A stretch of 64,000 nt of DNA. Source: Lineus longissimus (Eukaryota; Nemertea; Pilidiophora; Heteronemertea; Lineidae). Every line of letters starts with the position of its first letter. Positions within the stretch are counted from its first letter, which is position 1. The position numbers and the translations under genes were made by a program. Location: contig NC_088325.1 of assembly GCF_910592395.1 (NCBI RefSeq), positions 14,386,109 through 14,450,108 of the forward strand. The letters are read 5' to 3'. Below are positions 7,642 through 34,495 of the stretch, one piece after another. The notes under the pieces were generated by a model. It ran no database searches. It saw only the letters and a list, made by a program, of their open reading frames with translations, and had not been told where the DNA came from.

Positions 7642-10600
7642 ATGTTTCTGAGATTTCTGGGATATTTCTTGCTGCTGTCACTTACTGAAGGTAATTTCAC
7701 AACACAGTATATTACATGCAAAATGTTTTTATAGCGACTTGGGTTGTTCGTACATTGAGCTACTCGATACGTAAGACTCACCCTCGGACTCAACTCAGAC
7801 ACTGTCTAAATAATTGTCTCGCGACTTGATCGAGATTCTAATCTAGTTCTAATGGAAGATCTGATTGGGGGTTTCGGTTAGAATTTCTTACCAGATCACC
7901 AAATGTAATTTGCCCTGTGTGGCGTTCCCCGTTTTTTATTTGTTCACTAATTACGTTGCCTCTTTCTTTAATTGTGACTAAAAGATACTACCATGTTTAA
8001 TATCGCTCAAAGGAGTGCCCTGGGCGCACCATTGTTGTGGTTTTAAAAACAATTCCGTGTTCAAATTTCCATTCTAAGAGGCCTTGGTCACAGGATATCA
8101 TTATGTTTAATGGAAACGCGTTAAACCTCCGCCTCGGATTTCGGTCTGCATTTTTGGTCTACCCGAGCGGTCTTGATTATACAACCAATGACATCCAGCT
8201 CGGTATTAATTCCTTAAGCCACCTCCCCACTCGAATTCAAATCTTCAACAGGAGTTACGCCACCAACTTGCCAAACTCCATTATCTCCTCCTTCCACACT
8301 AGGTCTACCGACACCGACAACAACTACAGTGCCAACTTCAACACCAACGACTACAACCTCACCATACTCTACAACTACCTCAAGCTCAGGAGGTGGTTTT
8401 CCCGGCAAGACACCGACCCTTCAAGTAGCCACATCAAGTTCATCGATAACACCAACACTAATGATTCCAATCTGGACAACAACCTCACCTTACTCTACAA
8501 CCCCATCGAGCTCAGGAGGTGGTTTTCCCAGCAAGACACCGACCCTTCAAGTAGCCACATCAAGCTCATCAATAACATCAACACCAACGACTACAATCTC
8601 GACTACAACCTCACCTTACTCTACAACCACATCAAGCTCATCAATAACATCAACTCCAACGACTACAATCTCGACTACAACCTCACCTTACTCTACAACC
8701 ACATCAAGCTCATCAATAACATCAACTCCAACGACTACAATCTCGACTACAACCTCACCTTACTCTACAACCACATCAAGTTCATCAATAACATCAACAC
8801 CAACGACTACAATCTCGACTACAACCTCACCTTACACTACAACCACATCAAGTTCATCAATAACATCAACTCCAACGACTACAATCTCGACTACAACCTC
8901 ACCTTTCTCTACAACCACATCAAGCTCATCAATAACATCAACACCAACGACTACAATCTCGACTACAACCTCAACTTTCTCTACAACCACATCAAGTTCA
9001 TCAATAACATCAACACCAACGACTACAATCTCGACTACAACCTCACCTTACTCTACAACCACATCAAGCTCATCAAGAACATCAACACCAACGACTACAA
9101 TCTCGACTACAACCTCACCTTACTCAACAACCACATCAAGCTCATCAATAACATCAACACCAACGACTACAATCTCGACTACAACCTCACCTTACTCAAC
9201 AACCACATCAAGCTCATCAATAACATCAACACCAACGACTACAATCTCGACTACAACCTCACCTTACTCAACAACCACATCAAGCTCATCAATAACATCA
9301 ACACCAACGACTACAATCTCGACGACAACCTCACCTTACTCTACAACCACATCAAGTTCATCAATAACATCAACACCAACGACTACAATCTCGACTACAA
9401 CCTCACCTTTCTCTACAACCACATCAAGCTCATCAATAACATCAATACCAACGACTACAATCTCGACTACAACCTCACCTTACTCTACAACCACATCAAG
9501 CTCATCAATAACATCAACACCAACGACTACAATCTCGACTACAACCTCACCTTTCTCTACAACCACATCAAGCTCATCAATAACATCAACACCAACGACT
9601 ACAATCTCGACTACAACCTCACCTTTCTCTACAACCACATCAAGCTCATCAATAACATCAACACCAACGACTACAATCTCGACTACAACTTCACCTTTCT
9701 CTACAACCACATCAAGCTCATCAATAACATCAACACCAACGACTACAATCTCGACTACAACCTCACCTTTCTCTACAACCACATCAAGCTCATCAATAAC
9801 ATCAACACCAACGACTACAATCTCGACTACAACTTCACCTTTCTCTACAACCACATCAAGCTCATCAATAACATCAACACCAACGACTACAATCTCGACT
9901 ACAACCTCACCTTACTCAACAACCACATCAAGCTCATCAATAACACCAACACCAACGACTACAATCTCGACGACAACCTCACCTTACTCTACAACCACAT
10001 CAAGTTCATCAATAACACCAACACCAACGACTACAATCTCGACTACAACCTCACCTTACTCTACAACCACATCAAGCTCATCAATAACACCAACACCAAC
10101 GACTACAATCTCGACTACAACCTCACCTTACTCTACAACCACATCAAGTTCATCAATAACATCAACACCAACGACTACAATCTCGACTACAACCTCACCT
10201 TTCTCTACAACCACATCAAGCTCATCAATAACATCAACACCAACGACTACAATCTCGACTACAACCTCACCTTTCTCTACAACCACATCAAGCTCATCAA
10301 TAACACCAACACCAACGACTACAATCTCGACTACAACCTCACCTTACTCAACAACCACATCAAGCTCATCAATAACATCAACACCAACGACTACAATCTC
10401 GACTACAACCTCACCTTACTCTACAACCACATCAAGTTCATCAATAACACCAACACCAACGACTACAATCTCGACTACAACCTCACCTTACTCTACAACC
10501 ACATCAAGCTCATCAATAACACCAACACCAACGACTACAATCTCGACTACAACCTCACCTTACTCTACAACCACATCAAGCTCATCAATAACACCAACAC

Positions 10601-12064
10601 CAACGACTACAATCTCGACTACAACCTCACCTTTCTCTACAACCACATCAAGCTCATCAATAACATCAACACCAACGACTACAATCTCGACTACAACCTC
10701 ACCTTTCTCTACAACCACATCAAGCTCATCAATAACATCAACACCAACGACTACAATCTCGACTACAACCTCACCTTTCTCTACAACCACATCAAGCTCA
10801 GGAGGTAAGATAATGGAAAGAAACACAAAGAGCAATCGAGCTTTTTTTAAAAAGGGTCTTGTAAATGTCCGCTTTGGTTTATTTACTGCTTGAGTTTTAT
10901 TTAAATTCTTGCTGGCAAGATGGCGTTGTCTCAGATAATTGCTTCTTTTCATCGAGATTAGTTCTAAATCGTAATTCACAAGCTGTAACTTGATTTAGTC
11001 GTCAAAGTTACAACATTCTATAATTTAGATGAATCGAAGCTCTCCCTAAACTCCTACTTTAAGTCGGTGTCATTGAGGAGCACAGTATCCTTATACTGTA
11101 TCTTTTATTCTCAAGAACTAAATACGAGTGTCTTTCTCGTCATTACTCTTCAGACGTGATTATCCGAGTTTCTGTTGGTTTGGCTGTACCTCTGGTCATT
11201 GTCTCAGCCATTCTCATTTCACTGATAATAATCTTGTGGAGGTAAGTTGCCAGCATTGATCGATTTCCTCAGTCACATTCGGGTAGTATTGGCCAATCAG
11301 AAAAGCTCATTTCGTCAGCCTCGGCGGAGCTTCATTTTACCGTTGGTATTAACAAATAAGAAGCCCTCATTTATACTTCAACGGAGTTGTTCGCAGAAGT
11401 AAGTCAATCACAAAAGCTAAACAATAATGGGTGCTATGGATTGTCATTCGATCTATATCTACATTTTGAAAGGACTTTTAAAAACGTAAAATAAATTTTG
11501 TTGTTAACCAAAGTTTTTGCTTTCGTTTTCAGAAATGGAGTTATTGCCCGCCTCTGCAAATGTCATTCTGGTGGAAACACAGACGTCGACGAAGCTGCAA
11601 AAAACAATGCCAATGGCCTCACTTCCGGTGCAAATGTTGAAACAGACTTTGAAGACGTCTCTGGGTCGACTTTTGCCAATCATGCGTTTGTTGATGACCA
11701 AAATGCGAGTCTCCCCCAGATTTCAGATATTGGTGACTTTTCCGACGTGAATATGCCAGACATAAAGCCAACGGATAATCACAATGACAGGATGCCTACT
11801 TATGAGAACATTGAAACAAATGGAAGGAGTCAAGGCGGGCGGGCCTTGGGCACAAACACTCGGCGCCAGGAGGTACCAGCCCCAACGGATCGTGATGTTT
11901 CTCTTTACGCAGAAATAGGAGACACTGGCGCCAGTAGGCTATGCGTTTTGGCAGTAGCTGCTCCCGGGGAGGAAGACGAATCAACCTACGCCGAACTTGA
12001 GCCGGTAGAGCGCTCAGTATATCTGAACTTGCGTCACACGGGTCTTGCTCAGTCCAAGTCGTAA
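7642..12064 (+). CDS. Gene A: mucin-like type I membrane receptor with ITAM tail
   Basis: Four exons are proposed: 7642-7690, 8219-10804, 11154-11241 and 11533-12064 (1084 aa). Residues 1-16 form a signal peptide (MFLRFLGYFLLLSLTE). Residues 17-878 are a Ser/Thr/Pro-rich stalk made mostly of about 31 copies of a 24-residue repeat, expected to be heavily O-glycosylated. A membrane helix lies at about 884-907 and a 177-residue cytoplasmic tail follows. The tail has TYENI (Tyr998), an ITIM-like SLYAEI (Tyr1033) and an ITAM, YAEL-x7-YLNL (Tyr1060 and Tyr1071). The stalk frame is chosen because it starts like the stalk exons of B and C (SPLEFK, then PPTCQ) and joins the membrane exon in phase. A longer open frame through the repeats is out of phase. 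Unlike B and C, no lectin or CUB exon fits in the 528-bp first intron. Likely role (inference): surface sensor or adhesion protein signalling through SH2 proteins. Confidence 0.8.
8565..10800 (+). repeat. 72-bp coding minisatellite of gene A (about 31 copies)
   Basis: A 72-bp unit repeats in tandem without frame change. In the coding frame it gives 24 residues around STPTTTISTTTSPYS plus a run of T and S. Copies differ at few sites, mainly TAC/TTC (Y or F in SPYS/SPFS), tca/cca (ITSTP or ITPTP) and tct/tca. Two related but more divergent units with GGGFP lie just upstream (8385-8560). The period is a multiple of three and carries few stops, so other frames on both strands stay open across it. 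Copy number is likely polymorphic between individuals. Confidence 0.95.
11987..12031 (+). other. ITAM-coding segment of gene A
   Basis: The segment codes YAEL, seven residues (EPVERSV), then YLNL. This fits the immunoreceptor tyrosine-based activation motif YxxL/I-x6-12-YxxL/I. In animals with Src and Syk family kinases, dual phosphorylation of such a motif creates a docking site for tandem SH2 domains. The second half, SVYLNL, also fits the ITIM consensus on its own. Confidence 0.8.
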
Positions 12065-12857
12065 ATGATTGTGTAATCATTCCGAGACATTCTGCAGTAT
12101 CTGAAGAAGTTTTTTACAATGCTTTTTAACATTTGTAAATTTCAATGATGACTGCTCTCAAAATTTGTCCACTGCATTCTATCACGTGGAAAGCAATGAA
12201 CACATAACATCACTTTTAACATCACTTGTCAATATATTAGTTTAATACATGTAGAATTGATATATATTTCATGATAATAAAAACAGATTGTGTAACACCC
12301 AATGTACGGTGTTGTTAATGTGTCCTTGTTTGCTTATTCGCCACTTGCCTCAAGAAGCTTTGGTTTTAGTCGTATTTGGCCAATCAGAAGGCCTCACTCT
12401 TGTTAACCGCGCCCAACCGGCATGGTACAGGGCGTCCGATTGGCTAAAGTACGACCGAAAGGCCAAATAATGAGCAGGTTGTTGGATTGCAGCCATGACT
12501 CCTTTGTGATTTCTTAAGCTATATAAGTTAGTCCGTGTGTGGGTTTTCTTGTTTCGAAACTTCCTGGTCTTGTTACATCAAACGATAATTTCAATAAAAG
12601 TATTACAGAATAAACTTTCAAATGGCATTTACCATTCAGAGTGACATTCATCATTTATCATTCAAAAGACGGCATTTCCTTCTTAAAAATGAGAAGACGT
12701 CTTTTCAGGGCAGTAGGCCCTGTGTTCATAGTGTTTAGAAAATCGAGGTCGGTGTATGTTGGAAATCATGCCTTACATAAAAGTTTACCTCCCAAAATAC
12801 GAGATCAGTTATAGGATCCTTTTTCACAGTTCAGAGTGTTATAGATAAGGATTCATC
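12065..12857 (+). other. 3' flank of gene A and 5' flank of gene B
   Basis: The first part is the 3' UTR of A, with AATAAA at 12276-12281. The segment 12065-12475 is closely repeated after gene B (16019-16435). The segment 12485-12857 is closely repeated before gene C (about 17353-17720). The latter includes a stretch (about 12692-12815) that codes a peptide ending in SLPPKIRDQL, like the end of LINE reverse transcriptases. It would be part of the leader of B. A candidate promoter is listed separately. Confidence 0.6.
12369..12527 (+). promoter_or_regulatory. Candidate promoter of gene B: inverted CCAAT pair and TATA-like box
   Basis: Two arms of about 20 bp form an inverted repeat: 12369-12388 (with ccaat at 12380-12384) and 12435-12455 (with attgg at 12439-12443). 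A TATA-like tatataag follows at 12520-12527, about 330 bp before the start codon at 12858. CCAAT boxes in both orientations a short way before a TATA box are a common promoter layout. No transcription start can be proved from the sequence. Confidence 0.4.
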
Positions 12858-15800
12858 ATGTGGCTGCCGGCGATACTAGGATATTTCTTGCTTCCTTATC
12901 TTGCTGAAGGTAAGCTGTACATTAATTTTCATATTTTCGTGCATACATGTCATACAATAATCTATGCCACACCATTTAAAGATATGACTTTACACTTGAT
13001 TACGTCACCGTAGTTTTAATCACGAAAGAGCAGATCTACGTGCACCAAAGACGATGTGTGCCGACATTGTCTCAAAGTTGATGAATTTGCAGCCCTTACA
13101 ACGTACAATAGCAATAGTATGTCGGCAATTGATTAATGTATAGACCACAGGTGGACATGCATTCTATTAGTATAGTACCCATATAAAGTACTGTTGACGA
13201 GACGAAAAAACACACAATATTTCAGCTATTTTACCAGTTGGCCGTCACATTTGGTAGTCCATCATTTTATTTCAGGTGCTAATAGAATATTCACTTGCTC
13301 TCCGGGACGCTTGACGGTGACATGTGATGCAGGGAAAGTCATACTTGTAAAACAAGTGCACCGTGGCTCTTATAGAGGCGCTTTCGATTCCTCCCATTGC
13401 AAATACCAAGGTGGTGATGGGTTTGAAACAGCCGATGGTAATTCAAAACAGGTTTGGGAGGAGTGCAATCTACAAAACACGTGCTCTGTTCTATTCATCC
13501 AACCGGGGAATTATTATCTGGAAATGGTTTATGAATGTGGTGAGATAATTCTTTGATCAGTGTTGATGCGCCATTCTTTCGTTATAATCATTACGGGTGC
13601 CCGAGAACAAGAATATACGTATGTAGGGTTAGAAAAACGAAATGACCTCTGACAAAAGCCAGGTGTTGATATCCTCGGTCGAGGCGGAAGATCCGGAAGG
13701 TTCTGTTCTGCTACTCTGCGTTCGACAATCCAAATTCCAGTAGTATGGAGTGTAGGCCTACACTTTCGTTCGAATTCTCCGGTAAACAAAACCTGCATCC
13801 ATCTTATGTGATAAACACTGGTTTACATTGTGTAACGATGCTCGATTCGCCTATACTTGCTGATATTTTCTAAAAGAGTCTTACATTTCAGTTTATAAGA
13901 GTAACATCGAAATGCTAGATATCTGCGATACTGGCGGTGGCACGCGATTAGTGACAAAGCATGGATACATCTACAGTCCCTGCTACCCGAACTTGTCGAC
14001 GTGGACAGAGTCATCAAATTTATATTGTAGGTGCAGTGGGACGTTAGCTTCCGGGGGAACGGACGACATGACTATCAGTGTCTTCAACGCATTTCAAGGA
14101 ACAGACGAACTGGGTATCAGATGGCATAGTATCACTAATGAACCGGTGACATTTAAAAGTACATCACGAAGCTTCAGGACGGTAAGAAGCGCCACCGGGA
14201 GTTTCCACCTTCGATTCTCTTCTACTTATGTAGGATTTGATTGGAACAGAGGTTTTTGGTTAGAATTTAAAGGTAAGACAATCCTGGTTGGCCAAATAGA
14301 ACGTAAAAAGAATGGAACGAAACAAACTACCCTTTGGAGGCGCGGATCCAGAGTCTTGTAGATGTCCTGAGGTCGCTTTTGGTTCGCCGAATTGGAGGCC
14401 GGAATATGGGGTCTTCCACAACAAAATTGGGAAATCTATGAACGTGCTCTTAGATTGCGATTTCAGATCAGAAATATTGGGTGATATGAATAAAGACTAG
14501 CAAATGCTTTTATCTAAATCTCCATGTGCATTTACACGAGGCCTTCCTGTACAAAACCGGAGTAAAAGCATTTGCTAGTCTTTATTCATATCACCCATTG
14601 ACTCTGGCCATTTCATCTTTATTCAGCACTGTTCAGGGTCTACAATTGTTATATATGTTCTTCTATACAAGTTCTTTAAATTTGCAGCGGACTCCCCACT
14701 TGAATTCAAATGTTCAAATCGAATCGTTGTACCACCAACTTGCCAAGCTCCTATACCTCCTCCAACCACGACGCCGACGACGCCGACGACGACGACGACG
14801 ACGACGACAACAACAACAACAACAACAACAACATCAACAACTACAACAACTCCAACCACAACCACGCCAACCACAAGCTCAGGAAGTGGTTTGCCCGGCG
14901 TGAAGACAACGATCCACGAGACAGCAACCACATCAAGTTCATCACCGACTAATGCGACCTCCAAAACAGTTGATAGGTCTGAGTTGAGTGAACGAGGTAA
15001 TAAGGCAATGGAATGGACATCGAGATTAGTTATAAATTGTAGTTCACAAGCTATAACTTGCTTCTGGTCGTCAACTTTTAGTCGTCAAAATTTAGATGAA
15101 TCGAAGCTGTCCTGATAGACTCATACTATACATGAAGATGTCGGAGTCATCAAGGAGCACAATCTAGTTTATTTTTAAGAAGTAAATCTCTCTCTCGTAA
15201 CTGGCCATTTTTGCATTGTCAGAGATGTTCATTTTTCGCCCGCCTTCTCACATAGATTTTGGTACATTTTACTCTTCAGATGTGAATATCCCAGTGACTG
15301 TTGGATTGGCTGTACCTCTGATCATTGTCTCAGCCATTCTCATTTCACTGATAATATGGAGGTAAGTTGCCAACATTCACCAATTTCCTGAGTCACATTC
15401 GATCTTTCAACAACATTCTGAAAGGACAAGGACTTTTATAGATTTTAAAAATACGTTTAACCATAAGTGTTTGCTTTCGATTTCAGAAACGGAATTATTG
15501 CCCGACTCTGTAAATATCATTCTGGTGAGAACAGAAACGACACCGCTCAAAACAATGCTAATGGCCTCACTTCCGGTAGGCCTGTCTACGAAAATGTTGG
15601 AAGAGACTATGAAAACGTCTCTGGGTCGACTTTGGTTAATCCAGCGTTTGTTGGTGACAAAACTCCGAGTCTCCCCCAGTTTTCAGATATTGATAACTCT
15701 TCCTACGTGAATATGCCAGATATAAATCCAACGGATAATCACAATCAAAGGATGCCTACCTATGTTAACGTTGAACCAAACAGCAGGAGCCAAGGTGCTG

Positions 15801-16018
15801 AGGTCATTCGCACCCATCGTCAGCAGGCACCACCGATTGGTGGTAGCTGTCCTTACGCAGAAATAGGAGACACTGGCGCCAGTATGCCAAGCGTTGGGGA
15901 AGCAGCTGCTCCCGGGGAGGAAGACGAATCACCATACGCCAAACTTGAGCCAGTAGATCGCCCTGAATATATGGATTTGCGTCACATGGGTTTTGCCAGT
16001 CCCAGTCAAGAGGATTGA
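12858..16018 (+). CDS. Gene B: SUEL-lectin/CUB/mucin receptor with ITAM tail
   Basis: Six exons, all in phase: 12858-12909, 13276-13539, 13892-14272, 14688-14996, 15280-15361 and 15487-16018 (539 aa). Residues 1-17 are a signal peptide. Residues 18-105 resemble a SUEL/rhamnose-binding lectin domain (LTVTC, G-x-VILV, GSY, CSV and YLEMVYEC), but with six rather than the usual eight cysteines. Residues 106-232 are a CUB domain (HGYIYSPCYPN, then WNRGFWLEF). A Thr-rich stalk covers 233-335 and a membrane helix about 340-362. The tail (363-539) has Y-x-N-V/M motifs (Tyr397, 404, 436, 455; Grb2- and PI3K-type), YAEI (Tyr486) and an ITAM, YAKL-x7-YMDL (Tyr513 and Tyr524). The head is nearly the same as in gene C, while the tail and 3' flank match gene A. 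Likely role (inference): carbohydrate- or protein-binding surface receptor that activates kinase signalling. Confidence 0.85.
15935..15979 (+). other. ITAM-coding segment of gene B
   Basis: The segment codes YAKL, seven residues (EPVDRPE), then YMDL, matching the ITAM consensus with canonical spacing. It aligns with the ITAM of gene A. All four key positions (Y, L, Y, L) are kept although the residues between have changed, which suggests selection on the motif. Confidence 0.85.
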
Positions 16019-16623
16019 TAGCGAAGTAGATATTTCTGAGATAGCTGAATAAGTGTTTTACAGTACTTTTTTGCATTTTTGTATATTTCTATGATGGCTT
16101 CTAAAAATTTGTCCACTGCATTCTATCACGTGGTAAACAATGAACACATGACATCAATTTTAACATCACTTGTCAATGTATTAGTTTAATACATGTAGAA
16201 TTGATATATATTCCATGATAATAAAAGCAGATAGTGTAACACCCAATGTACGGTGTTGTTAATGTGTCCTTGTTTGCTTATTCGCCACTTGCCTCAAGAA
16301 GCTTTGGGGTTTTTAGTCGTATTTGGCCAATCAGAAGGTCTCACTCTTGTTGACCGCGCCCAACCGGCATGGTACAGGGCGTCCGATTGGCTAAAGTACG
16401 ACCGAAAGGCCAAACAATGAGCAGGTTGTTGGATAGCAACGAAAAACTGAATGCTTCCTTACGGCCAAGAAATGTTTAGAACGAATTCAATTCTAGGTCA
16501 TGACAACAAGATATTTGGAGATTTCGCACAGAAAACGCAGCAAGTAGAAAATGTCCTTTTTCAAATGAAACTTCAAAGACTGAAACATTCAAATACACTC
16601 ACTTTGCCAAAATCTTACAAAGG

Positions 16624-16947
16624 ATGACCAAGAACGAGCAATTTGAAGGGAAACACTCACAAGTTTTCCGAGCCATTTTCAGCCTTCTTCGCGCGTGCCC
16701 CCTACATGTGCCAATGAAAGAAGCATGTTTATTTGAAGGGACTGCTGGAGCCAAACCCACGGTCTGGGTGGGAGAATTTTCTGAGGGTGCATCGCACAAG
16801 GACTGCATATATGGGAACCGCAGCTTTTCTATCCCTGGTCTAAGACTATCGAACGCTTTGCCATGTGCATTGCGAACAGTAACATACATTGAGATATTCA
16901 AGGCAGAGTTGAAGACCTTTTTATTCCAACGGGTGGTGGCGCATTGA
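16624..16947 (+). mobile_element. LINE reverse-transcriptase C-terminal remnant
   Basis: A 107-codon open frame ends in YGNRSFSIPGLRLSNALP, then IEIFKAELKTFLF. This is the typical layout at the C-terminal end of non-LTR retrotransposon ORF2 proteins (GxRxFSxxxPxxWNxLP, then F-K-x-x-LKxxLF). No catalytic FADD-type motif is present in the window, so only the 3' end survives, as expected of a 5'-truncated insertion. It lies inside the roughly 915-bp insert that splits the 5' flank of gene C compared with that of gene B. Confidence 0.65.
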
Positions 16948-17677: not shown

Positions 17678-17720
17678 GATCCTTTTTCACAGTTCAGAGT
17701 GTTATAGATAAGGATTCATC

Positions 17721-20700
17721 ATGTGGCTGCCGGCGATACTAGGATATTTCTTGCTTCCTTATCTTGCTGAGGGTAAGCTGTACATCAATTTTCATATTTT
17801 CGTGCATACATCTTATACAATGATCTATGCCACACCATTTAAGGATATGACTTTACACTTGATTACGTCACCGTAGTTTTAATCACGAAAGACCAGATCT
17901 ACGTGCAGCAAAGACGATGAGTGCCAACATTGTCTGATAGTTAATGAATTTGCAGCCCTTACAACGTACAATAGCAGTAGTATATCGGCAATTGATTAAT
18001 GTATAGACCACAGGTGGACATGCATTCTATTAGTATTGTACCCATTTAAAGTACTGTTGACGAGACGAAAAAACACACAATATTTCAGCTATTTTACTAG
18101 TTGGCCGTCACATTAGGTAGTCCATCATTTTATTTCAGGTGCTGATAAAAAATTCACTTGCTCTCCGGGACGCTTGACGGTCACATGTGATGCAAGGAAA
18201 GTCATACTTGTAAAACAAGTGCAGCGTGGCTCTTATGGTGGCGCGTTCGATCCCTCCCATTGCAAATACCAAGGTGGTGATGGGCTTGAAACAGCCGATG
18301 GTAATTCAAAACAGGTTTGGAAGGACTGCAATCTACAAAACACGTGCTCTGTCTTATTCATCCAATCGGGGAATTATTATCTGGAAATGGCTTATGAATG
18401 TGGTGAGAAAATTCTTTGATCAGTGTTGATGCGCCAATATTTCCTTATAATCATTACGGGTGCCCGAGAACAAGAATACATATAGGGTTAGAAAAACGAA
18501 ATGACCTCTGATAGAAGCCAGGTTTTGATATCCTCGGTCGAGGCGGAAGATCCGGAAGGTTCTGTTCTGCTACTCTGCGTTCGACAATCCAAATTCCAGT
18601 AGCATGGAGTGTAGGTCTACACTTTGGTTCGAATTCTCCGGTAAACAAAACCTGCATCCGTCTTATATGACAAACACTGGTTTACATTTTGTAACGATGC
18701 CCGATTCGCCTATACTTGCTGATATTTTCTAAAAGAATCTTACATTTCAGTTTATAAGAGTAACATCGAAATGCTAGATATCTGCGATACTGGCGGTGGC
18801 ACGCGATTAGTGGCAAAGCATGGATACATTTACAGTCCCTGCTACCCGAACTTGTCGACGTGGACAATGTCAACACATGTATATTGTGAGTGCAGTGGGA
18901 CGTTAGCTTCCGGGGGAACGGGAGACATAACTATCAGTGTCTTCAACGCATTTCAAGGAACAGAAGAACTGGGTATCAGATGGCATAGTATCACTAATGC
19001 ACCGGTGACATTTAAAAATACCTCACGAAGCTTCAGGACGTTAAGAAGCGCCACCGGGAGTTTTCACCTTCGATTCTCTTCTACTTATGTAGGATCTGAT
19101 TGGAACAGAGGTTTTTGGTTAGAATTCACAGGTAAGGCAATAATTATATAATGTTAGACCAAACCATCAATCCAAAGAAACCTACACTCGAGATTCAGAA
19201 AGAAAAGGGAAGAATAACGCCGACACGAAATAAACTACCAGATGCAACTATTTTATCGTACATAAAGCCTGCATGGAACGGGTCTGCTATATTTCTGTTT
19301 GATGACGGTGTGATCTTTACCAACATTCTATCCTATGCAATTTTGTGTCTAAATTTGCAGCGGACTCCCCACTTGAATTCAAATGCTCAAATACAGTAGT
19401 AACGCCACCAACTTGCCAAGCTCCTGTCCCCCCTCCCACCACAACACCGACAACAACAATAACGACGACGACAACAACAACAACAACAACAACGACACCA
19501 ACAACAATAGCAACAACTACAACTACAACAACTCCAACCACAACCACGCCAACCACAAGCTCAGGAAGTGGTTTGCCCGGCGTGAAGACAACGATTCCCG
19601 AAACAGCAACCACATCAAGTTCATCAAAAACTGATGGGACCACCAAAGTAGATGATGAGTCTCAGTTGGGCCAACGAGGTATGGAAAACGAATATCTGCT
19701 TAGTTAAATCACCACATTAACTCATGTATCATATTTGCCAGCAGATTATTAGAGCTGCCTTTACCGGTAATCATTTTCATCAGCAGAATATTTATGAGGT
19801 CCTGTCAAGTAAGCCACTCGGAAACCCCTCACTCCGCTTATTATCACCTCGCTGGTGAAGGGACATGATTCATGCCTCAGGGTCAATGATTGGGTAATTT
19901 GAGAGAAGGTCTTAGAAGTTTTATTTGAGGAAAACACTAACTTGAGTACTGTCGCGTGCAGCTCCTGGTCCGATGTTTCGTGTGAAATTCGATCTCGACT
20001 TCAGAGGTTACATAAATAGTTTAGGTCCTTCCGTTCCTTGGTTCTACTGACTGATGATGTCTCACTTCTATACACACTCTTCTTGAAGGTTTCGATTCTT
20101 CCCTGCCTTACATTCTTTCTCACTTCTGTTGTGGACCCGAACAGTAGCATGCACATTGAAAATCATACTACAACATCTACTTTTCAGATATCATTGCCAT
20201 CGCTGTGGGCACCATCATACCACTGATCGTCATTGCTGCCATTGTAGCAACTGTGCTCATCATTCTGAGGTGAGAGAAGTTCTTGATTCTGTACAACAGT
20301 CAGTTGATAAGTCGGACTTGCCCTTCCTCCCCTTCTTCTTCGTCTAAGCACACGACAGCAGCATTCAAGTCACTGCTCTATGAATCTGACGACTGTAGCC
20401 ATCCCAAAGTTTGCCAGTGGTCTAAACATCCTCGGGTGACATTGAGGCATTCGTGTCTTTCGTCAACAGAACAATACTCACGCAGTGGCTGGTATGGCAA
20501 GGTACTGAATGATTCGTAATCTCGTGAAAGTGATACCAAAATGTAAAACTGGCCCAATGGATATAGATTCTGTCAATTTAATAGAAACACTGACTTCTCA
20601 TTGACTCCAACACCATCATTACGATACATTTTCTATTGTGCAGGAAACGACGACAAGCTGCAGAAGCGAAATCCAAAAGCAAAGAAGAACTGGTACCGAA

Positions 20701-22504
20701 GGCTTCTGTCGTGGGTTTCAGTATTTCTCTCGTCAACCCAAGCTGTGATCCCGAGTCAGGGGAGCAAATACCCCAACGTGTGGAGGAAACTGAAACTGAC
20801 ATTGCAGAAGACGACCCGTCGTCCCTTTACTCTTTGGAAAATGAAGGGGCGGTTACGCTTAAGTTTGGGAATCCCAATGGTGGAGCTGTGGAGGATGTTT
20901 TACCTCCTCGTGATAATGTCAATGTTGGCCAACCTAAGAAGCCTGTAGTGCCGGCGCCGAGAAAAACGACGGAGTCGAAGAAGGATACTTGTCCACGTGA
21001 TTCCGAGGATCCGTCGTCCCTTTACTCGTTGGCAAATAAAGAAGCGGTTCCGCTCGAGTTTGGGAATCCCAATGGTGAAGCTGGGGATGATGTTTTACCT
21101 CTTCGTGATAATGTCAATGTTGGCCAACCTACGAAGCCGGTAGTGCCGGCGCCGAGAAAAACGACGGAGTCGAAGAAGGACACTTGTCCACGTGATTCCG
21201 AGGAAGGTGGAAATCCTGCTGATGCCGTGTACACAGAGGTAGTTAAGAAAGGCAGCAGAGAAAAAGCTCCAAGTAGCAAGAAACTTGCTGAGGGTGCTGC
21301 CGCCTCTGAGAAACAAGCATCTTGGCCACTGAAACTAATCACAAAACCGAAACCCGCGACGAAACCTCCGTTAAATTCCCTGAAGGATACTGGTCCCAGT
21401 GAGATCGAGGACGACAGTCCCAAAGATGTTTATGCCAAAGTCGAAAAGAAAGATAGAAGAGGACACGTTGGTTTTGTAAATCAGGCGCTTGCTGGTGAAG
21501 ATTCCGTGGCAGAGGTGAGTTGTGCAACTGGTGGTGCAGGGGCGGGAGAGCGTGACCTCTACACCCAGCAGGTCAATAAAAGTGCCAAAAGGAAAGTCTC
21601 TCGACCCGAGGAACCGAACATTGACATCAACCATGTCGGCATTTCAGAACCACCGAGCGATGCTGTTTATGCGCAAGTTGATAAGACAGCTAAACCAAAA
21701 ACGCCGAAAAAACCACAAGTTCCCAGGCATATTATCGGTGGAGCTCAAAATGCGTCGAAGAGAGCAGAAGATGCTTCTTCCGGTGACGTCTATGCGCAAG
21801 TTCAGAAAGAAAAGAGGGCAACGTCGCCACGTGGTGAGGCCTCAAAATATGACCACTTAAACTTTGATATAATCGCTCAGAAGAAAGTTTCAGATAAGAC
21901 TGATTTGTACAGTAGTGTTGATGATGTTGTCACTTCGACACTTGATGACGAAGGCGACGAGTCCTCTGACGGCGAAATATACGGTCCTGTTAATGCTGAC
22001 CATGACGAGGGTCTCTACGGTCCTGTTAATGATGACGGTGACGGGGATCTTTACGGTAGTGTTGATGATGTCGGTGACGAGGATCTTTACGGTCCTGTTG
22101 ATGTTGACGGTGACGGGGATCTTTACGGTAGTGTTGATGATGACGGTAACGAGGATCTTTACGGCAGTGTTGATGATGACGGTGACGGGGATCTTTATGG
22201 TAGTGCTGGTGATGACGGTGGTTATGGTTATGCATACGCTGAGGGTCGAGGTTTTGATAGATCTGACCCGGATTATGGCGAGGTTGGTGATATTCAAGAT
22301 GGCGGGCCGATAATGGAACCAGGTGACGATACATATACATTGATTCCAAATAAATCCACTGTTCAGCAAACTGGTGGAGGATCTCAACTTCCCTTTGAAA
22401 CTGACGATGATACCTATGACCATGTTGCATTGGAATTTGCAAGAAATCCCAAAGTTCAAGAAGACGAGAGAAGATTAAGTGATCAGGGCGATACAGAGGC
22501 TTAG
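17721..22504 (+). CDS. Gene C: SUEL-lectin/CUB/mucin receptor with long repeat-rich tyrosine tail
   Basis: Six exons: 17721-17772, 18139-18402, 18751-19131, 19361-19678, 20188-20269 and 20644-22504 (985 aa). Residues 1-17 (signal peptide), 18-105 (SUEL-like lectin) and 106-232 (CUB) closely match gene B in length and sequence. A Thr-rich stalk (233-338) and a membrane helix (about 341-364) follow. The 620-residue tail is unrelated to that of B. It has a 65-residue duplication (SSLYSL to CPRDSE), several VYAQV, VYAKV and VYTEV motifs, seven tandem copies of an 11-residue acidic repeat centred on LYGSV/LYGPV, and terminal DYGEV, TYTLI and TYDHV. All tyrosine motifs favour YxxV, so a different set of SH2 partners than in B is likely. 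I know no orthologue. Confidence 0.8.
20813..21202 (+). repeat. 195-bp coding tandem duplication in the gene C tail
   Basis: Segments 20813-21007 and 21008-21202 code two 65-residue copies. Both begin DPSSLYSL, contain NVNVGQP and VVPAPRKTTESKKDT, and end PRDSE. The second half of the unit is almost unchanged between copies. Each copy adds one YSLE/YSLA tyrosine motif and a proline-rich VVPAPRK segment that could bind SH3 domains. Confidence 0.85.
21971..22222 (+). repeat. 33-bp coding repeat: seven LYG(S/P)V units in the gene C tail
   Basis: Seven units of about 11 residues follow one another: a tyrosine in IYGPV, LYGPV, LYGSV, LYGPV, LYGSV, LYGSV and LYGSA, each separated by acidic D/G/E/N residues. 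Acidic residues before a tyrosine favour Src/Syk-type kinases, and V at +3 is common in SH2 ligands. A repeated docking site of this kind would give graded recruitment of one partner (inference). Confidence 0.85.
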
Positions 22505-24443: not shown

Positions 24444-26999
24444 ATGGCTTCCTCAACAGCTGCGATGATGTTCCTGTCATCACTCCTACTTGGAATGGTG
24501 CTGGATCTAACTCTTGCACAAGGTGAGTAACCTCGTAACAAAAAGAAATCAGTCAAATTCTTCATCGAACTGCTGTACCCTTGTCTATCATTGACTTTCG
24601 ACATGATTAATTCATTGGTCTTCGGGGAACTGACCTATGTAGTGTAGGATGCTCGGGAGCGATCAGCCCATGAAGGAACATAGGCTAACATATTTGAAGC
24701 TTAGAACCCACATGTCTCACATTACAGAAACCACAAAACCGGAAGTGATAGCTGTTGCGGTACTGGTGCCTCTTTTCCTCATCATAGCGGTCCTGATAGT
24801 GGTTTTCGTAGTATGTAGGTAAGTTTGGTTTCAGTTATACTGTGTCTCCGGCTGTATCCACCCATTCTCCAAACAGACATAGTATTCAAACGTATTCTCT
24901 CTGCGATTATTGGCCCAATGTTGTGGCGTCAATGACACGGTGCATATGGTAATTGGATTGAGTTAGCCACCTAGAAAGGTAGCATTTGGTGTTTCTGACT
25001 GATGAGAGACAAGAGGTCCCCTCCCCAGCTACCCAATACACCGTGAATAAGACTACATGTACATCATCCAGTTGCTTTTCTTAGGCTTCGAGATCGCGAA
25101 GTTCCTTACGAGCTCTCTCTGGTCTGCTTAATAGTGAGGTGGGAATTGGAGATGCTCGTACCCCAGTGTTTGCACTTGAGGCTGCATGTAACTTTTGTTA
25201 AGAGAACTACATGTATACGGTTGTTTTGCTAAATACCACTATCGCTCCTCATTAATAAGCAAAGTTTATTTTTCAGACGGAAAGTCCTGCAGGAAAAAAG
25301 AGAGGAAATTTTTTCGGGATCAGGTGATTCGGAAAATGATGCGATAGACACCGGATTAAGTAATGGATATGTTGATGACGATATAATGGAGAAGGAGGTG
25401 GCAGCGGTGGATGTTATGCGAATGCATGGATCAGCAGAGTCAGAAGATCCGGGACATGGATGTAATGGTCCTACAGATGAGAGGTTGAGTTCAAATGGAT
25501 TGCTAAAGGGAGAGGGTTGTGTTGTCAGGACGTGTACAGAGGAGAATGTAGTTGTGCAAAACGGAGCCTTAGAGAGAGATTGTGAAACGATTTCGTCTGT
25601 AGAGGAACAGGAAAAGGAATGTGATAACAAACTGTCGGTGAACGATGAAACTGACACGGGGCTTGTTGGTGCAGAGGATGGCGGCAGTGATGTTGGTTTG
25701 GATGCGGGGAAGGATTGTATGAAAGAGAATGCTGGCGATGACATTGGAGGAGAAGTGCAGGGGACAGAAGCAGTCCCAGTATTAAAGAATTCGACCATGA
25801 ATGAGAAAAGTCTAGGTGGCGGTGTGACAGACAGTCTGTTGGGGAGGGAAACTGGTGTGGAAGTAGAAAATCTGGAGGTACTGATAGATGGCGATCAAAA
25901 ACAGAGCTGTTTTGAAGGCAACTATGCGACAGTAGGTGAAGAACAGTTTGGAGACGATGTTGAAAAAGAAGATGATGTGGGGTTTGGAATTGAGGACGGA
26001 AATTCACCAAGGAGAGACTTGGGTGAAAGTGACGAATATCTTGAGCAAGAGGAAGACAACTATGCGACAATTGGTGGCGATGTTGATGTTGAGACAGAGA
26101 ATAGTGGATCGGGAATAGAGAATGGAAACCTTGCCGAAGGTATGAGTGTTGAAAAGAAAAAAGAGAAGATTTTCCTTAATCGTTTCAAAAGATCAAATGG
26201 TGGCAGCCAATCTGTTACATCCGCGAACCAGCCTGTTGAGGAGCCAGTCTATGCTGCTGTTGACCTGAGTAAAAAGAAAAGGTCAAGGTCAGAAAAAGCT
26301 GCGGGCGAGGCTAAGTTGAAAGTGGACGAGGTTGCATCGAGTGACGATACTGAAATGTATTATAGACTTGACAGAAACAGGGCGTCCAAATCGAAAGAAG
26401 GTCAAGGGCAAAATGATGACAAGGCCATGCCAAAAGGACGCGTAAGTGACATGAGTGGAAGAGAAGAAACAGTTTTGATTGAGAATGATATATATTCGCA
26501 AACGCCACCTGGTTGGCAAAGAAAAGGCAGCGCTGCAGACAACAATAGGGCGAAAAATGGTGTGTCAGACGGGGCCCACGATGGGGCAGGTTCATATAGT
26601 GATGAAAAACAGCGTAATACAGAGGAACTGGATGACAGGCTAGAAGGAGAACACGAAGAACCTGGCTATGAAAGCTTTGAAGGTGAAGACTCGGCCGCGA
26701 CCAAGGCTGTAAATTTGAATGCGAGGTATCACAATTACACCGAGGTTGATCTAATCTTAAATACGGACGACGAGGTCAAGAAGTCAAAACCACGGGTTCC
26801 TAACTTCAGGCCAGAAATTCCTCCGGCGAAACAAGATGGCGGCAGCTACGTTGACCCTGATTATGAAGCTTTCGGAAATGACGTACCGGAAGGGGGTGTT
26901 GACCCTGACTATGCGAGTATGAACAATTCAGATAAAGAGTCGGAGGAAGACCATTATGCAACCGTGGGTGGTGAGGCAAGCCGGGAGGATCAGTCATAG
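24444..26999 (+). CDS. Gene D: LAT-like transmembrane adaptor with many tyrosine motifs
   Basis: Three exons: 24444-24522, 24728-24818 and 25277-26999 (630 aa). Residues 1-26 are a signal peptide ending in LTLAQ. Only about seven residues (GETTKPE) would be outside the cell before the membrane helix (about 34-55), which ends in VVCRRK; the cysteine at the inner face could be palmitoylated. The 574-residue tail is acidic with a basic centre. It carries NYATV, NYATI, VYAAV, MYYRL, IYSQT, GYESF, NYTEV, SYVDPDYEAF, DPDYASM and HYATV. A tiny ectodomain, one helix and a long tail of tyrosine motifs is the design of the vertebrate adaptors LAT, LAX and PAG. No sequence relationship to them is claimed. 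The membrane exon has the same size and phases as in A, B, C and E. Role as an adaptor or scaffold is inference. Confidence 0.75.
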
Positions 27000-28852: not shown

Positions 28853-31800
28853 ATGAAGGCTTCGAAAGTGATAGGAACATTTTCGTTAATGTTCGTGATG
28901 GGGCTTCCAACCCTCGCTCAAGGTGAGTTATACCTGCAAGAGACTAACATGCACCATCATATTTGATTAGGAAATGCGTGTCCAAAGTAGTCCACTCTAA
29001 AGTTTAAATATAAACATGTTTGACCTTGAAGTGATTTTGTATTCCTAACACAAGTATATGCGTTAAAATTGTCCTCTCCGCGTCGGACGCCCAACGAAAC
29101 GAATGAAGGTCCCCCGACGAATACCCCTTCTAGTTATAAACCTTCAGTGAAATTCCCGTTGTGGTCAAAATGGACGGTGAAGATGTCCCCAACATTTTAA
29201 TACTCGTAATGGAAGATATTTAAAACAAACACGCTTTTATTGTTTGTTGTAAAAAAACCTCGGCCCCTCATCCGACATCGTACTGATGTCTGAGAGAAGA
29301 TTCTAAAAAGTTTTAAGGAGATCGAGACAAAGAAAGCAACAAAATTCATAAACTGATGTGTTGTGGAATTTTCATCTACTTTACGAAAGGGGGAGGGGTG
29401 TGGGGATCTTTACCGAAGGATTTTCGCAAGGGGAATCTTTACTGAGAGTAGCCTATGAATGCATACGTTCTGGCTGGCTTATAGGGTCTAGGTTGCATGC
29501 AAATGCTTCCTTCTAATGTTGAGGAATTTTTCATTCCCTGAACCCCGCCCCTTTCGAAACAGCAAACTGCCCTTTACCAAACCTTCATTTCAGGTGGATG
29601 GGATGATAATAATAATTATAAGACTTATATAGCGCTAAATCCAACTGGTTTCAGTCGCTCAAAGCGCTTCACATTATTACCCTATAGCTATTGGCCTGTA
29701 CATTCGTGGCTCAAGCTCTACTCTCTGGGAGTATTACTCTCTGGGAGTATTATGAGAGTGGAGCAGGTGGTCCAAATGGTCAGCCTGCTGTGACACCCAG
29801 ACTCAGTTAAAGAGTCGCTTCAGGACCTGTGATAGCAAATTGGGTGTTAGTGATAATTGCACCCCTAGGAAAGTTGAGGCGGAACACATGTTTTGCTATG
29901 GTAAGGACTTGTAGCATTGTCGAGCGCTCGAGTTATGGAAAATATATTCAGACATCCAGAAATAAAAAATTTGATGCCCTTTCCAAGCCGCTGCAGATTC
30001 CAGCTACGCTCCCTTCTTTGTCTGAAAGCATTAGTTTGGTTTATTTTAAAGCATCAGATTAGTTTATTTGTTTCGAAATTAATAACGTTGAATATTATCC
30101 TATGGATGTTTATTTCAGAACTTCCTGGCACGCCGACCATCCAGGTCAAAGGCCGAAGTGGAGGTCCAGTTTATTATGTAGATAAAGGCGTTACCATTTC
30201 CATGACCTGCAAAAGTGACCCAAGCGACGTTTGGGCCACTTGGTCTTGGCCTTCTTATGAATGGTACACGTTATCGAGCCGGCAACGTTTGAAAGTGGCG
30301 GCCTCAGCGACTGTGAACATAAACAGTACCGGAATCTACCAATGCCGCGTTGGTCGGACCAAAAGAGGCGTCACATTGTGGAGTTATTTGAGTTATTCCA
30401 TAGCACTCGTCGTGAGAGGTAGATATCCTCTTCGGGGCTAATTAGAGGAGTGTCAACTTTATAACATTGGGCGCAACGAAGGCGGAAGAGCCAGAAACTT
30501 AAAGCGCCTGGCAACCCCAAAACGAAAAAGGAAACCGGTACATCCATCGGCTAGTTTTAAAAATTCTTGGTGACATGCATCCGTGCCCCAATATGATCAA
30601 TTTTGATGAATGATATTTTTTATGACTGATCAAATGTATTTTCTCTCGTTTAGAGCCGGATGACTCCGAAACGCCTGACAACCCAAAAATAATTTGGTTT
30701 CCAAAAGGACCCATACACGTTGGTGACACTATCACTATGATTTGCCTTGCTGATCTTGATGGAAGACAACCAGATGATTCGTTCATTACATGGCATAATC
30801 GTGAAGCAGATCAGATACTTTCACCACACCTACACACATCGACGGCTGATCAGGATTATATACGTATATTTTCTAAGAAAGTGGAACTTGCCGATTCGGG
30901 AAATTACTCCTGTCGAGCTATTTATGATGAAGATGAAAAGACCAGCAAAGAAGGAAAACTTGTGATTATTGGTTAGCAAACGCTAAAGAGTGTTTTTCAT
31001 CCTTTTTAATCAGGGTTCCAGAATTGGTCTCACTTACCTTGTTCTATCCCAATCTTTCTTTTATACCCAAACCTGCCACGGTAGAATTGGACGAATCATG
31101 CATGATTTCAATCGCCATGATCACGGAATATTAAGTTAGTACTTTGCTCCAGTGCTCAGGAAAAACGAAAAACCAAACATAAACACGATTTTGTTGGATT
31201 TCGTGAAAATGGTGTCACTTGCAAACCATCCTTAGTAATAAATGAACCCGCAAATAAAATGTTCAAGTAATTGTAACCGGGTTATCGTTCCAGATTACCC
31301 TACCATCACTGACTGGCCAGAACATTCCACACTCGCCGTCGGGGATGCACTCTCATTGAAGTGCAGTACTACAATTGCTAGGGGATCACTCCCATCGTAC
31401 CGTTGGTTCAAGGATTCCGCCGTGCTTCCACAATCTACAACGGCAACCTATTCGAAACAAAACGTGGAAACATCTGATGCCGGAGAATACTTGTGCAGTG
31501 TAGATGAAAGTGATGGTTCAGCTAGCAACAGCACTGTAAGGACACTCTTCGTAAAAGGTAGGTCTAACTCAAAATATGAACTTGACCGTAAAACTCACAT
31601 GGCAATCATATCAGTTTCTTGAGAAGGTCATATCATATTCAGGCCACAGCAGGAAACCAAACAGCCTCAGACGAAGAGACCATGCCATATACCTAGCACT
31701 ACTACGGAAACGACGTCAACTCCCAAGGGTTACACAACAGAAAGCAGTGGTCACTCGAGGTAAATGATAACAGTCCCCGTCGCTGGGAAAAATGCGGCAT

Positions 31801-34495
31801 GTTCGATGTTATCTCTAATGAATGATGTTATTGGTCGCAGAAGCAGAAACCTGGAAGAGGAATTGCTCCACAATGTGGACGAAGTGGATGAGTCGAGACC
31901 CAAAAGCTCGCATGGAATACCGCAACCAATTCTGTGCTGAGATCAGCTCCCGGGGAAAAATCAGGAACTGGACCTTAGAGTTAGAGGATCGTGCCAAACG
32001 AGGTAAGAAAGAGAGGTCGCTGTCCACAGTGACCAAAAGGATTGGCAGGATTACAAATTTGCCTTTTGAAGACATTACATGAACTTCAGAGGTGTCGATT
32101 TCTGTGAACAACGTTACGATTTGTACTTTCTTGCAAGCTGTGCTTCTTCTAAAGAATCCATTTATTTTCACCAATTTCAGCCTCAACGTTTGATGCATCG
32201 TTCCGGTCCAGAAAGAAGACATTCACCAAAGCCTTACTTAACCAATCATCGGACGACTTTAAAGCTCTCAAAACCGAATTCACGCACCTACTGCAAAAGG
32301 TTTATAAAGATTCCGACAACGCTACTAGCGATCTGGTGAAAGAGGTTAACATTACAGGATTCAAGTAAGCACATCTAGACACAACAATAAACCATTGATA
32401 ATGGAGTAACCTTAGGATGAAGGAAAGGTCGAAATTTGTGCAAAGGTTTCTGTCTAGTTTATCTCACGTTAAAGAGTATGAAGGCCTTCTTACGAGACGA
32501 CTGGTGAGCGTAGTATCCACACGATTAGCAACCTCTTATCTTTGCTTCCAGGCAAGGCAGCGTCATTGTCCACTTCCGTGTTATATTGTACACCGCAATG
32601 AAGGTGACAGACCCTGTCGCCAATATTTCCAAAACACTGGCCGACTATCTCAACAAGCATACGGCAGATGCTGAGGAGTATGGTATCACTCCTTCGTCTG
32701 TTACCAGTTCAGGCGAATGCATGGCAGACCAGTCGACTGCCTCTTCGCGAATTGCAAATACGCAGAACAAAAGTGAGTTTTTTTACACTTTTCGAGTTGA
32801 ATCGACTTTCGACCATTCCTCAAGCAGGAACAGTGGAACTCTGACGGCCGATCTTTTACGCCGAACACGCATGAGGTGTATGTTCTGATTGGCCAATACA
32901 TGATTGGAGGTTCCAAATTCATGTTGACTCACATAAACTTTCGTTCGTTCCAGAAACTGAACACGATCCCTATGCAAACCATTTCGCCGATCAGTCGAGG
33001 TATTTGAGTTTTCCATCCGAAAAACAAGAATCAATCTGCCAAATCACCCTCCAAAGACGAACGACGCGCACTCCAACACCCAGTCAGCAGTGATGCATTT
33101 GACCTAAATCTTGTCCCTGACCTTAATCTTGAAACCCTTTCAATTTCAGCCGAGGTCATCCTAGCCGTAACCTTGACCTTCATTATGCTTCTGGTTGTTG
33201 TCGTTGTTGTGCTGGTCTTTTTCTTATTAAGGTGAGTATAAACAGATTGTTGAAGGTTGCTTCAACTATCGATTGATCGAAGTTACCAAAATCATGATAT
33301 TTTAGATGGCATCGTCGAGAAGAGGAAATGTACTGCACGTTTTCTAGTTGCCTTTTTACCTTTCTTCTTACATTCGACGACCGCATCAAAACCTTGGTTT
33401 TGAAGATAATACGATTTGAGCTGACGTCCTCAGCTCAATCTCCAAAAAAGGCAGTTTTGGCAGGAATCTATAGGACTATAGTCATCATCTGGCCATCTTG
33501 CACTTGTCGTAAACAACCTCGCAGGTTCCAGCGAGGGGTGAGCGCTGTTTCGATATTTACGACCAGTTTCGCATTCTTAACAATTTTTTTTCACTTTTTT
33601 CAGACTGAAACGATCCCTCCTCGAGAAGGAATCACTGGGAGAAAACGTGGCATTTCATGCAGACGGCAACGGCAGTGGCCGGCCAGCTGTGATTGTGAAA
33701 GACAGAACGATTTCTCACGCGAGAAGTGACTTCGATCCGTACGCCGCGCTCGGGGATAAGAATGTCTACGCCGACAATGAATACGGGAGCTTAGGCGAAC
33801 AGAAAAGGATCGCCAGGCCTAAGGGCGACAAAGACAATGCTGCATATGCGTCAGAAGATGGGGATTATTTGGATATAATTGGAGACGGAAGGGTGGTTTC
33901 TCCGAGCCTGCAGGCAGAGTTAGAAGACGGATACCGGGTGAATGAGGCTGACGCACCGGAACCTGGGGGCGAAGGTGCTGAGTCCGTCTATACCTTGGCA
34001 GAAGGCACCGGTGACGTCTATGCAATTCCTGACAAGGAAATAATGGGCAAAAGCGGAGCCCCGGTGTTTTCCCAAGCCTTTGGAACGAAACCTGAACCAG
34101 TACCAGGAAAGACTACGTCATATGAGACCCAAGACGCAGCAGTGTATTCGCTAGAAGGAATTCCCCGCGGCAAACCCAAACCATCGCAGTCTTCTCTTGC
34201 CAACCATGTGGACGATGACAGCGCCGAGGACTACTCTCAACCGTATGGGCGCGCACCTGGCGCAAAGTACCCGGATAAGAACAAAAAGGGATTGCAAGGA
34301 AACGTTTTGTCTAGCAACGGTGATGGAGACGAGTACAGCAGACTACAACTCCCAACACTTACCAAGCCAAGTACGATGCAATATTTGGAGAAGAAACCGA
34401 AGCAAATGAAAGGTTTAAATTCTGCACAGGAAGATGTCCAGGATGATGATGAGGCGGACTATGAGTACAGCACGGCGTGCGAAGTGATTCCATAG
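28853..34495 (+). CDS. Gene E: three-Ig, WxxW-like, SEA-domain receptor with tyrosine tail
   Basis: Exons proposed: 28853-28922, 30119-30418, 30654-30971, 31294-31557, 31643-31759, 31841-32002, 32181-32364, 32552-32772, 33150-33231 and 33604-34495 (869 aa). Residues 1-23 form a signal peptide. Three Ig domains occupy 24-123, 124-229 and 230-317 (TGIYQC, SGNYSC and AGEYLC around the second cysteine). A short basic exon (318-356) is uncertain. Residues 357-410 have WTKWMSRD, like mucin-type WxxW domains. Residues 411 to about 530 are a SEA domain (ASFRSRKKTFTKALLN, then GSVIVHF), with GSVIV at the usual self-cleavage site. The membrane helix lies at about 547-571. The 297-residue tail has PYAAL, EYGSL, DYLDI, VYTLA, VYAIP, VYSLE and EYSRL. 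The exon pattern around the membrane helix equals that of genes A-D. Ligand unknown; cell-surface recognition is inferred. Confidence 0.75.
29590..29830 (+). repeat. Dispersed repeat in the first intron of gene E
   Basis: The block begins with an ataata run, then agacttatatagcgct and, about 40 bp on, caaagcgcttcac. This is an imperfect palindromic pair (agcgct/agcgct) of the kind seen in small dispersed elements of marine invertebrates. A short direct repeat, tactctctgggagtat, follows. Boundaries and family are not determined. Confidence 0.35.

Follow-up and report, generated by a model that had tools for sequence, protein, structure and literature searches.

Five consecutive genes, designated A to E, were recognized on the + strand of a 64,000-nucleotide stretch from the ribbon worm Lineus longissimus (RefSeq assembly GCF_910592395.1, contig NC_088325.1, positions 14,386,109 to 14,450,108), and their predicted products are membrane proteins with tyrosine-containing tails. 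The whole stretch is called the window, and positions are counted from its first letter. The published assembly of this species, GCA_910592395.1, is described with an alternate haplotype (PMC8593623). The five genes extend from 7642, the start codon of A, to 34495, the stop codon of E. The gene models were assembled by hand from splice signals and reading frames, and the signal peptides were called by eye with no predictor. The spliced frames are all open, the introns are all of the GT-AG type, and the models encode 1084 (A), 539 (B), 985 (C), 630 (D), and 824 (E) residues, with 830 in the NCBI version of E. Hydropathy indicated one strong membrane span per gene; among the signal peptides, only that of D exceeded the same threshold. 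Five acceptor sites fell below the listing threshold (A 8219, B 13892, C 18751, E 29757, and E 31294), the last of which is confirmed by the NCBI protein. No Rfam family was matched at the gathering thresholds.

The initial annotation had described A to E as consecutive single-pass type I genes on one strand, and the models agree with this and add a common phase plan. All five have a signal exon with a phase-1 end, a membrane exon of phases 1-2, and one tail exon that is entered in phase 2. Ectodomain exons, where present, are of phase 1-1, except for the SEA domain of E, which is split into exons of phases 1-2 and 2-1. Because A, B, and C are partly duplicates of each other, the five models are not five independent cases of this plan. 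The tail had been assigned to the last exon, and one tail exon is indeed found in every model, with the same junction in the NCBI model of E. The joining of the membrane exon to the tail exon is predicted for A to D and confirmed by NCBI for E. The remaining frames of these five exons are interrupted by stops, 4-79 of them on the + strand and 2-25 on the − strand.

Gene A (7642..12064, +) consists of a signal exon (7642-7690), a mucin exon (8219-10804), a membrane exon (11154-11241), and a tail exon encoding 177 aa (11533-12064). The weak acceptor at 8219 was picked by homology to B. The mucin exon contains 31 copies of a 72-bp repeat encoding 24 aa. In the stretch holding this array (8001-10890), two frames are open, with 891 and 935 codons in all. 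Two points favoured frame 0: it runs on into an exon that is conserved in B, and synonymous variation is greatest in it, at 19 of 43 codon changes compared with 8 and 1 for the other two frames. This is modest evidence, and frame 2, also open, was set aside on these grounds.

Gene B (12858..16018, +) has a signal exon (12858-12909), a SUEL-like exon (13276-13539), a CUB-like exon (13892-14272), a mucin exon (14688-14996), a membrane exon (15280-15361), and a tail exon encoding 177 aa (15487-16018). Gene C (17721..22504, +) has the same series of exons: signal (17721-17772), SUEL-like (18139-18402), CUB-like (18751-19131), mucin (19361-19678), membrane (20188-20269), and a long tail exon encoding 620 aa (20644-22504).

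DNA self-comparison clarified the origin of B, which had not been part of the initial annotation. Alignments shorter than 60 columns, inside the A array, starting at 39-44 kb, or inside the region past 43.9 kb were left out. The 5′ block of B (12487..14999, +) is a copy of 17350-19681, the 5′ half of C. The segment 12487-14282 matches 17350-19141 with 93.7% identity over 1801 columns, and 14677-14999 matches 19350-19681 with 84% identity; intron 3, between the two pieces, aligns poorly (106 of 217 positions identical). The 3′ block (15018..16438, +) is a copy of 10950-12491, which includes the membrane exon and the tail of A together with its 3′ flank. Its pieces 15018-15112, 15269-15401, and 15457-16438 show 81, 87, and 84% identity, respectively. 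The C-like matches stop at 14999, 3 bases beyond the mucin exon, and the A-like matches start at 15018. As judged from these alignments, B is a hybrid with the outer half of C and the membrane exon and tail of A. The phase-1 intron common to the C outer half and the A tail explains why B is in frame. Divergence is approximately 5% for B/C introns 1 and 2, 19% for the A/B tail, and 9.6% for the A/B 3′ flank. A single duplication event was rejected, as B is 93.7% similar to its source in the 5′ half and 81-87% similar in the 3′ half; this unequal divergence calls for two or more events, or for gene conversion at a later time.

Between the end of the A-like copy (16438) and the start of the C region copied in B (17350), a frame at 16504-16944 (+) resembles, by eye, the C-terminal end of a long interspersed nuclear element (LINE) reverse transcriptase, so that B and C may be separated by an insertion.

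The outer domains of B and C are named SUEL-like and CUB-like on weak grounds. SUEL_Lectin (PF02140) scored 14.9 bits in B (E-value 0.036) and 17.8 bits in C (E-value 0.0045), below the Pfam cut-off of 31.4 bits, and CUB gave no Pfam match in either gene up to an E-value of 10. The CUB-like exon was named from a G-x-I-x-SP-x-YP / GFWLEF pattern seen by eye. Sequence searches of PDB gave no match for the B ectodomain or for the profiles of the SUEL-like and CUB-like exons. AlphaFold models from two-row B/C alignments were unusable, with predicted local distance difference test (pLDDT) values of 36.9 (SUEL-like) and 36.6 (CUB-like). Of the SUEL-lectin, CUB, and mucin composition originally proposed for B and C, the mucin exons thus stand, and the two domain names lack Pfam support.

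The tail of C has no DNA match to the tails of A or B. It contains a 36-bp repeat (21980..22220, +), in which YG[PS]V recurs every 12 residues, giving a YxxV-x8-YxxV arrangement. Upstream in the same tail, 20816-21204 is an in-frame 195-bp duplication of an SSLYSL...VVPAPRK block, which is proline-rich and possibly SH3-binding.

Gene D (24444..26999, +) consists of a signal exon (24444-24522), a membrane exon (24728-24818), and a tail exon encoding 574 aa (25277-26999). Its outer part had been described as almost nothing, and approximately 7 residues were found between the signal peptide, with cleavage placed by eye, and the span. A cysteine lies at the inner membrane edge. The very short outer part, the one span, and the 574-aa tail with 16 tyrosines constitute a LAT-type build. 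Homology to LAT was rejected, as no Pfam family exceeded its cut-off, and for the same reason no sequence homology to PAG, LIME, or similar adaptors was found; the likeness is in build alone. Identity with DAP10 or DAP12 was also rejected, as the span has no charged residue.

Gene E (28853..34495, +) corresponds to LOC135502080, an uncharacterized protein gene of L. longissimus annotated by NCBI, with exons 28853-28922, 30119-30418, 30654-30971, 31294-31557, 31841-32002, 32181-32364, 32552-32772, 33150-33231, and 33604-34495. With this exon set, the translation shows no difference from the NCBI protein over 830 residues, and the membrane exon is spliced to the tail exon at the same junction as in the hand-built model. 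The linker exon 31841-32002 is extra in the NCBI model. A further candidate exon of phase 1-1 at 29757..29900 (+), left out by NCBI, is TSP1-like; its Pfam TSP_1 score is 13.1 bits (E-value 0.11), below the cut-off of 21.6, which leaves it as a possible cassette exon or an unused one. The outer part was correctly described as three Ig domains with SEA: both families exceeded their Pfam cut-offs, Ig_2 with 81.3 bits and three stretches, SEA with 36.1 bits (E-value 7.7 × 10−9). The exon of the first Ig domain on its own is under the cut-off, at 19.9 bits. The SEA domain contains GSVIV, which we take to resemble the self-cleavage site of mucin SEA domains. In the protein search, 19 proteins matched among 7995 candidates scored; only LOC135502080 matched over its full length, and the other 18 cover 10-16%.

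The share of tail tyrosines that lie in a YxxV/L/I motif is 4/4 for A, 6/8 for B, 15/22 for C, 6/16 for D, and 4/17 for E. These counts were reached by 3, 0, 0, 91, and 1148 of 5000 shuffled tails, respectively. Shuffling breaks the internal repeats of C, so that its count is inflated and overstates the number of independent motifs. The description of the tails as full of YxxV/L/I therefore holds for A, B, and C and is marginal for D, and it was dropped for E, together with its extension to all five tails.

The immunoreceptor tyrosine-based activation motif (ITAM) has the consensus Yxx(L/I)x6-8Yxx(L/I) and serves as a substrate for Src-family kinases and a binding site for Syk-family kinases, as reviewed in PMC10525366. 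A strict form of it, ExxYxxLx7YxxL, stands at the end of both the A tail and the B tail. The ITAM of A (11978..12031, +) is ESTYAELEPVERSVYLNL, and that of B (15926..15979, +) is ESPYAKLEPVDRPEYMDL. The strict form appeared in 1 of 4000 shuffled tails for A and 4 of 4000 for B, and the loose consensus (YAEL-x7-YLNL in A, YAKL-x7-YMDL in B) in 4 and 20 of 4000. Among six-frame segments of at least 60 aa (34,075 residues), only three loose matches were found, two of which are those of A and B. The two tails are paralogous, with 106 of 170 residues identical (62%), and thus the ITAMs are not independent; they represent one origin kept twice. All four YxxPhi motifs of A (tyrosine, any two residues, and a hydrophobic residue) are still YxxPhi in B.

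Other motif classes differ among the tails. B has four YxN-hydrophobic sites (YENV, YENV, YVNM, and YVNV; 0 of 4000 shuffles), A has two (3 of 4000), and D has none. YxN-hydrophobic is a Grb2-type site. No loose ITAM was found in the tails of C, D, or E. C shows five overlapping YxxV-x8-YxxV arrangements (0 of 4000 shuffles), the copies being repeats of one unit; as read from the repeat, the YG[PS]V spacing is ITAM-like, with V replacing L/I. When the spacer was loosened to 6-12, E gave one ITAM-type match (260 of 5000 shuffles), and it also has one hemITAM-like match (225 of 4000). The motif [SVIL]xYxx[VIL], which is that of ITIM receptors, occurs three times in A (0 of 4000 shuffles; two overlap the ITAM), once in B (832 of 4000), once in C (2248 of 4000), and is absent from D and E. 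The description of the genes as receptors or adaptors with tyrosine-motif tails is borne out by the ITAMs of A and B, the YxN sites of B, the YG[PS]V array of C, and the adaptor-like build of D.

It is proposed, with a probability of approximately 0.5, that the cluster is a small family of type I innate-recognition receptors with a bare transmembrane scaffold, which would signal through phosphotyrosine. The predicted proteins are likely to be phosphotyrosine-signalling receptors; an innate-immune role, suggested by an ITAM receptor of the oyster (PMC11999971) and by graft rejection with memory in Lineus (PMC2248247), is an evenly balanced proposition. A and B would be activating receptors: on clustering by a ligand, their ITAM would be phosphorylated by a Src-family kinase and would provide a docking site for a Syk-like tandem-SH2 kinase. 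The YxN sites in the tail of B would recruit Grb2-like adaptors. C and D would be many-tyrosine docking scaffolds, D in the manner of LAT. E would be a separate Ig receptor whose SEA domain, through GSVIV, may self-cleave. Syk kinases in a nemertean are indicated by inhibitor evidence from Cerebratulus oocytes, reported second-hand (PMC2820527).

The same tails could belong to epithelial or mucosal glycoproteins that use phosphotyrosine signalling to sense adhesion, shear, or dead-cell clearance and take no part in immunity or self/non-self recognition. The SEA domain of E points in this direction, as do the Thr/Ser mucin exons, which are long in A, B, and C. YxN, YxxM, and comparable docking motifs are SH2 sites of general use, not immune-specific, and ITAM-type motifs are also used by clearance receptors outside classical immunity. 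Nevertheless, A and B carry a full ITAM, a motif best known from immune receptors (PMC10525366), and the epithelial role is considered unlikely.

Several observations weigh against the proposal of innate-recognition receptors, and they concern the tails, coding potential, constraint, and database presence. The E tail is not enriched in YxxPhi, as given above, and the 24-residue ITAM block is identical between A and B at 16 of 24 positions, not clearly above the whole tail. The codon-use score of the B tail, −0.023, is just under the 95th percentile and not clearly above two other frames of B. Codon use is uninformative for the lectin- and CUB-like exons, and the antisense frame of the CUB-like exon scores higher. 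Between A and B, the ratios of nonsynonymous to synonymous rates (omega, dN/dS), 0.82 for the membrane exon and 0.88 for the tail, give no evidence of constraint. After simulated neutral mutation to the full distance, the tail stayed open in 495 of 5000 runs for A and 347 of 5000 for B, which indicates weak stop avoidance; at half the distance, the A tail was open in 1524 of 5000 runs. Three of five indels between the A and B tails are in frame, and the two that break the frame are C-terminal, past the ITAM. The case for coding constraint from stop avoidance, in-frame indels, and dN/dS thus came out weak and was not retained. For the lectin- and CUB-like exons of B and C together, 29 nonsynonymous differences over 489.5 sites and 9 synonymous differences over 149.5 sites give a ratio of approximately 0.98. 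The B ectodomain (residues 18-240) had no protein match among 919 candidates (length range approximately 297-943 aa), and a profile of C, D, and B (approximately 542-1724 aa) found only a marginal bird neurofascin (E-value 3.2 × 10−4) among 7966 candidates scored. B, C, and D may accordingly be unannotated, annotated differently, or unexpressed. Finally, the main text of an immune survey of L. ruber has no mention of CUB, tyrosine, or Syk (PMC9835746).

As a control, the profile recovered C with 1754, B with 1027, and D with 789 bits. The protein search covered B, C, D, and E. Within its limits of candidate number and length, and in a database of uncertain completeness for L. longissimus, B, C, and D as modelled appear to be absent while E is present; models of other lengths would escape the search.

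These results raise the alternative that the locus consists of partly decaying tandem duplicates, in which A and E are live and B, perhaps with C and D, is an unexpressed or mis-modelled by-product of duplication. The missing database entries of B, C, and D, the dN/dS near 1, the lack of codon-use support for the B tail and the lectin- and CUB-like exons, and the LINE-like fragment seen by eye between B and C would all fit decay. On the other side, all frames are open, including the single-exon tails of 620 and 574 codons. Codon-use scores of 0.049-0.112 support a coding role for the tails of A, C, D, and E; they lie above the intergenic maximum of 0.005, which is exceeded likewise by a second frame of C (0.025) and of D (0.035); that the C and D tails score above this maximum argues against decay. 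All 10 cysteines are kept between B and C in the lectin- and CUB-like exons, and omega of their mucin exon is 0.40. Decay of part of the cluster is judged improbable.

The outer exons of B and C also bear on a third alternative, an allorecognition or histocompatibility locus like fuhc of Botryllus or Alr of Hydractinia. The lectin- and CUB-like exons do not differ from neutral expectation (Fisher P 1.0) and are far above a purifying omega of 0.3 (P 4 × 10−8); taken singly, the lectin-like exon has an omega of 0.85 and the CUB-like exon one of 1.12. Ten of 26 differences alter charge. This pattern fits diversification or relaxed constraint alike, so that dN close to dS, which counts in favour of an allorecognition locus, is explained equally by relaxed constraint. 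Also in favour is that these type I genes are clustered, recombine, and have tyrosine-motif tails; in Botryllus, FcoR has ITIM (immunoreceptor tyrosine-based inhibitory motif), hemITAM, and YxxI/L/V tails and lies beside partner genes (PMC12065747). Lineus rejects xenografts with a memory component of three months (PMC2248247), but xenograft rejection differs from allorecognition. No Ig domain was recognized in B or D with Pfam, and the outer part of A is a mucin repeat. To our knowledge, Lineus is not colonial. An allorecognition function is very doubtful, and innate recognition is preferred.

The remainder of the window contains other features. A GPCR-like (G protein-coupled receptor) gene lies at 36834-38578 (+), where 37493-38224 matches 7tm_1 and 36834-37196 has no family match; within it, 38316-38513 is a tandem copy of 38007-38206 with 96.5% identity. 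Two C2H2 zinc-finger frames at 40470-43654 (+) contain 7 and 17 zf-C2H2 stretches. Satellite-like arrays with units of 98-100 bp and 225-227 bp occupy 44175-50563. A frame at 59289-59861 (−), on the strand opposite to A to E, has two fibronectin type III stretches.

In all five models, the membrane exon is bounded by introns that agree in phase, and thus tandem duplication can join the outer part of one gene to the tail of another in frame. As modelled, the locus can generate new receptor-tail pairings, with B as an instance, and B illustrates tandem duplication as a route to such pairings. A more tentative extension is that the locus is a protostome "receptor workshop", where a YxxV-array receptor and a LAT-like scaffold lie beside ITAM receptors, unequal crossing-over swaps recognition halves and signalling tails between neighbours in frame, and a LAT-like function is supplied. 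Provided that the models reflect what is expressed, a ribbon worm would have activating receptors with a textbook ITAM and mucin or lectin-like outer parts beside a gene of LAT build. In the portions of the open-access literature covered, no account of nemertean ITAM genes was found, nor a description of ITAM tails on mucin or SUEL/CUB-like receptors, of a tail-swapped hybrid, or of an invertebrate neighbour of LAT build. No recognition gene named for Lineus, a classical graft-rejection animal, was met in that literature.

Tails of this kind are already known in invertebrates from the receptors of oyster, Botryllus, and Hydractinia. CgIgIT2 from the oyster Crassostrea gigas recognizes Vibrio and lipopolysaccharide (PMC11999971). 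Like A and B, it comes from a lophotrochozoan, spans the membrane once, and carries a classic ITAM of its own; it has five Ig domains outside, whereas the outer parts of A and B are mucin or SUEL/CUB-like, and no LAT-like neighbour is described in the available account (PMC11999971). The FcoR and fester genes of Botryllus and Alr of Hydractinia are, like this locus, clustered type I genes with long tails containing ITIM, hemITAM, or YxxI/L/V motifs (PMC12065747). They differ in their Ig or sushi outer parts (FcoR) and known polymorphism, whereas A to C of Lineus have mucin, SUEL-like, and CUB-like outer parts and A and B have a two-tyrosine ITAM. E resembles SEA-domain mucins and Ig adhesion proteins in having a SEA domain by the membrane and Ig domains, and differs by its 17-tyrosine tail. 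D shares a short outer part and a signalling tail with DAP10 and DAP12, but lacks their charged span residue and an ITAM. LAT has a pair of cysteines at the membrane edge; D has one, and in addition differs from LAT by its signal peptide, called by eye, and the lack of a YxN-hydrophobic site. In its very short outer part, one span, and long multi-tyrosine tail, D is like LAT, which is described as a scaffold that has a short ectodomain and nine conserved tyrosines (PMC10525366). LAT was reported not found in ascidians (PMC12065747) and missing in amphioxus, where the authors asked if an unknown membrane molecule fills its role (PMC5431462), and the locus with D provides a concrete candidate for this question.

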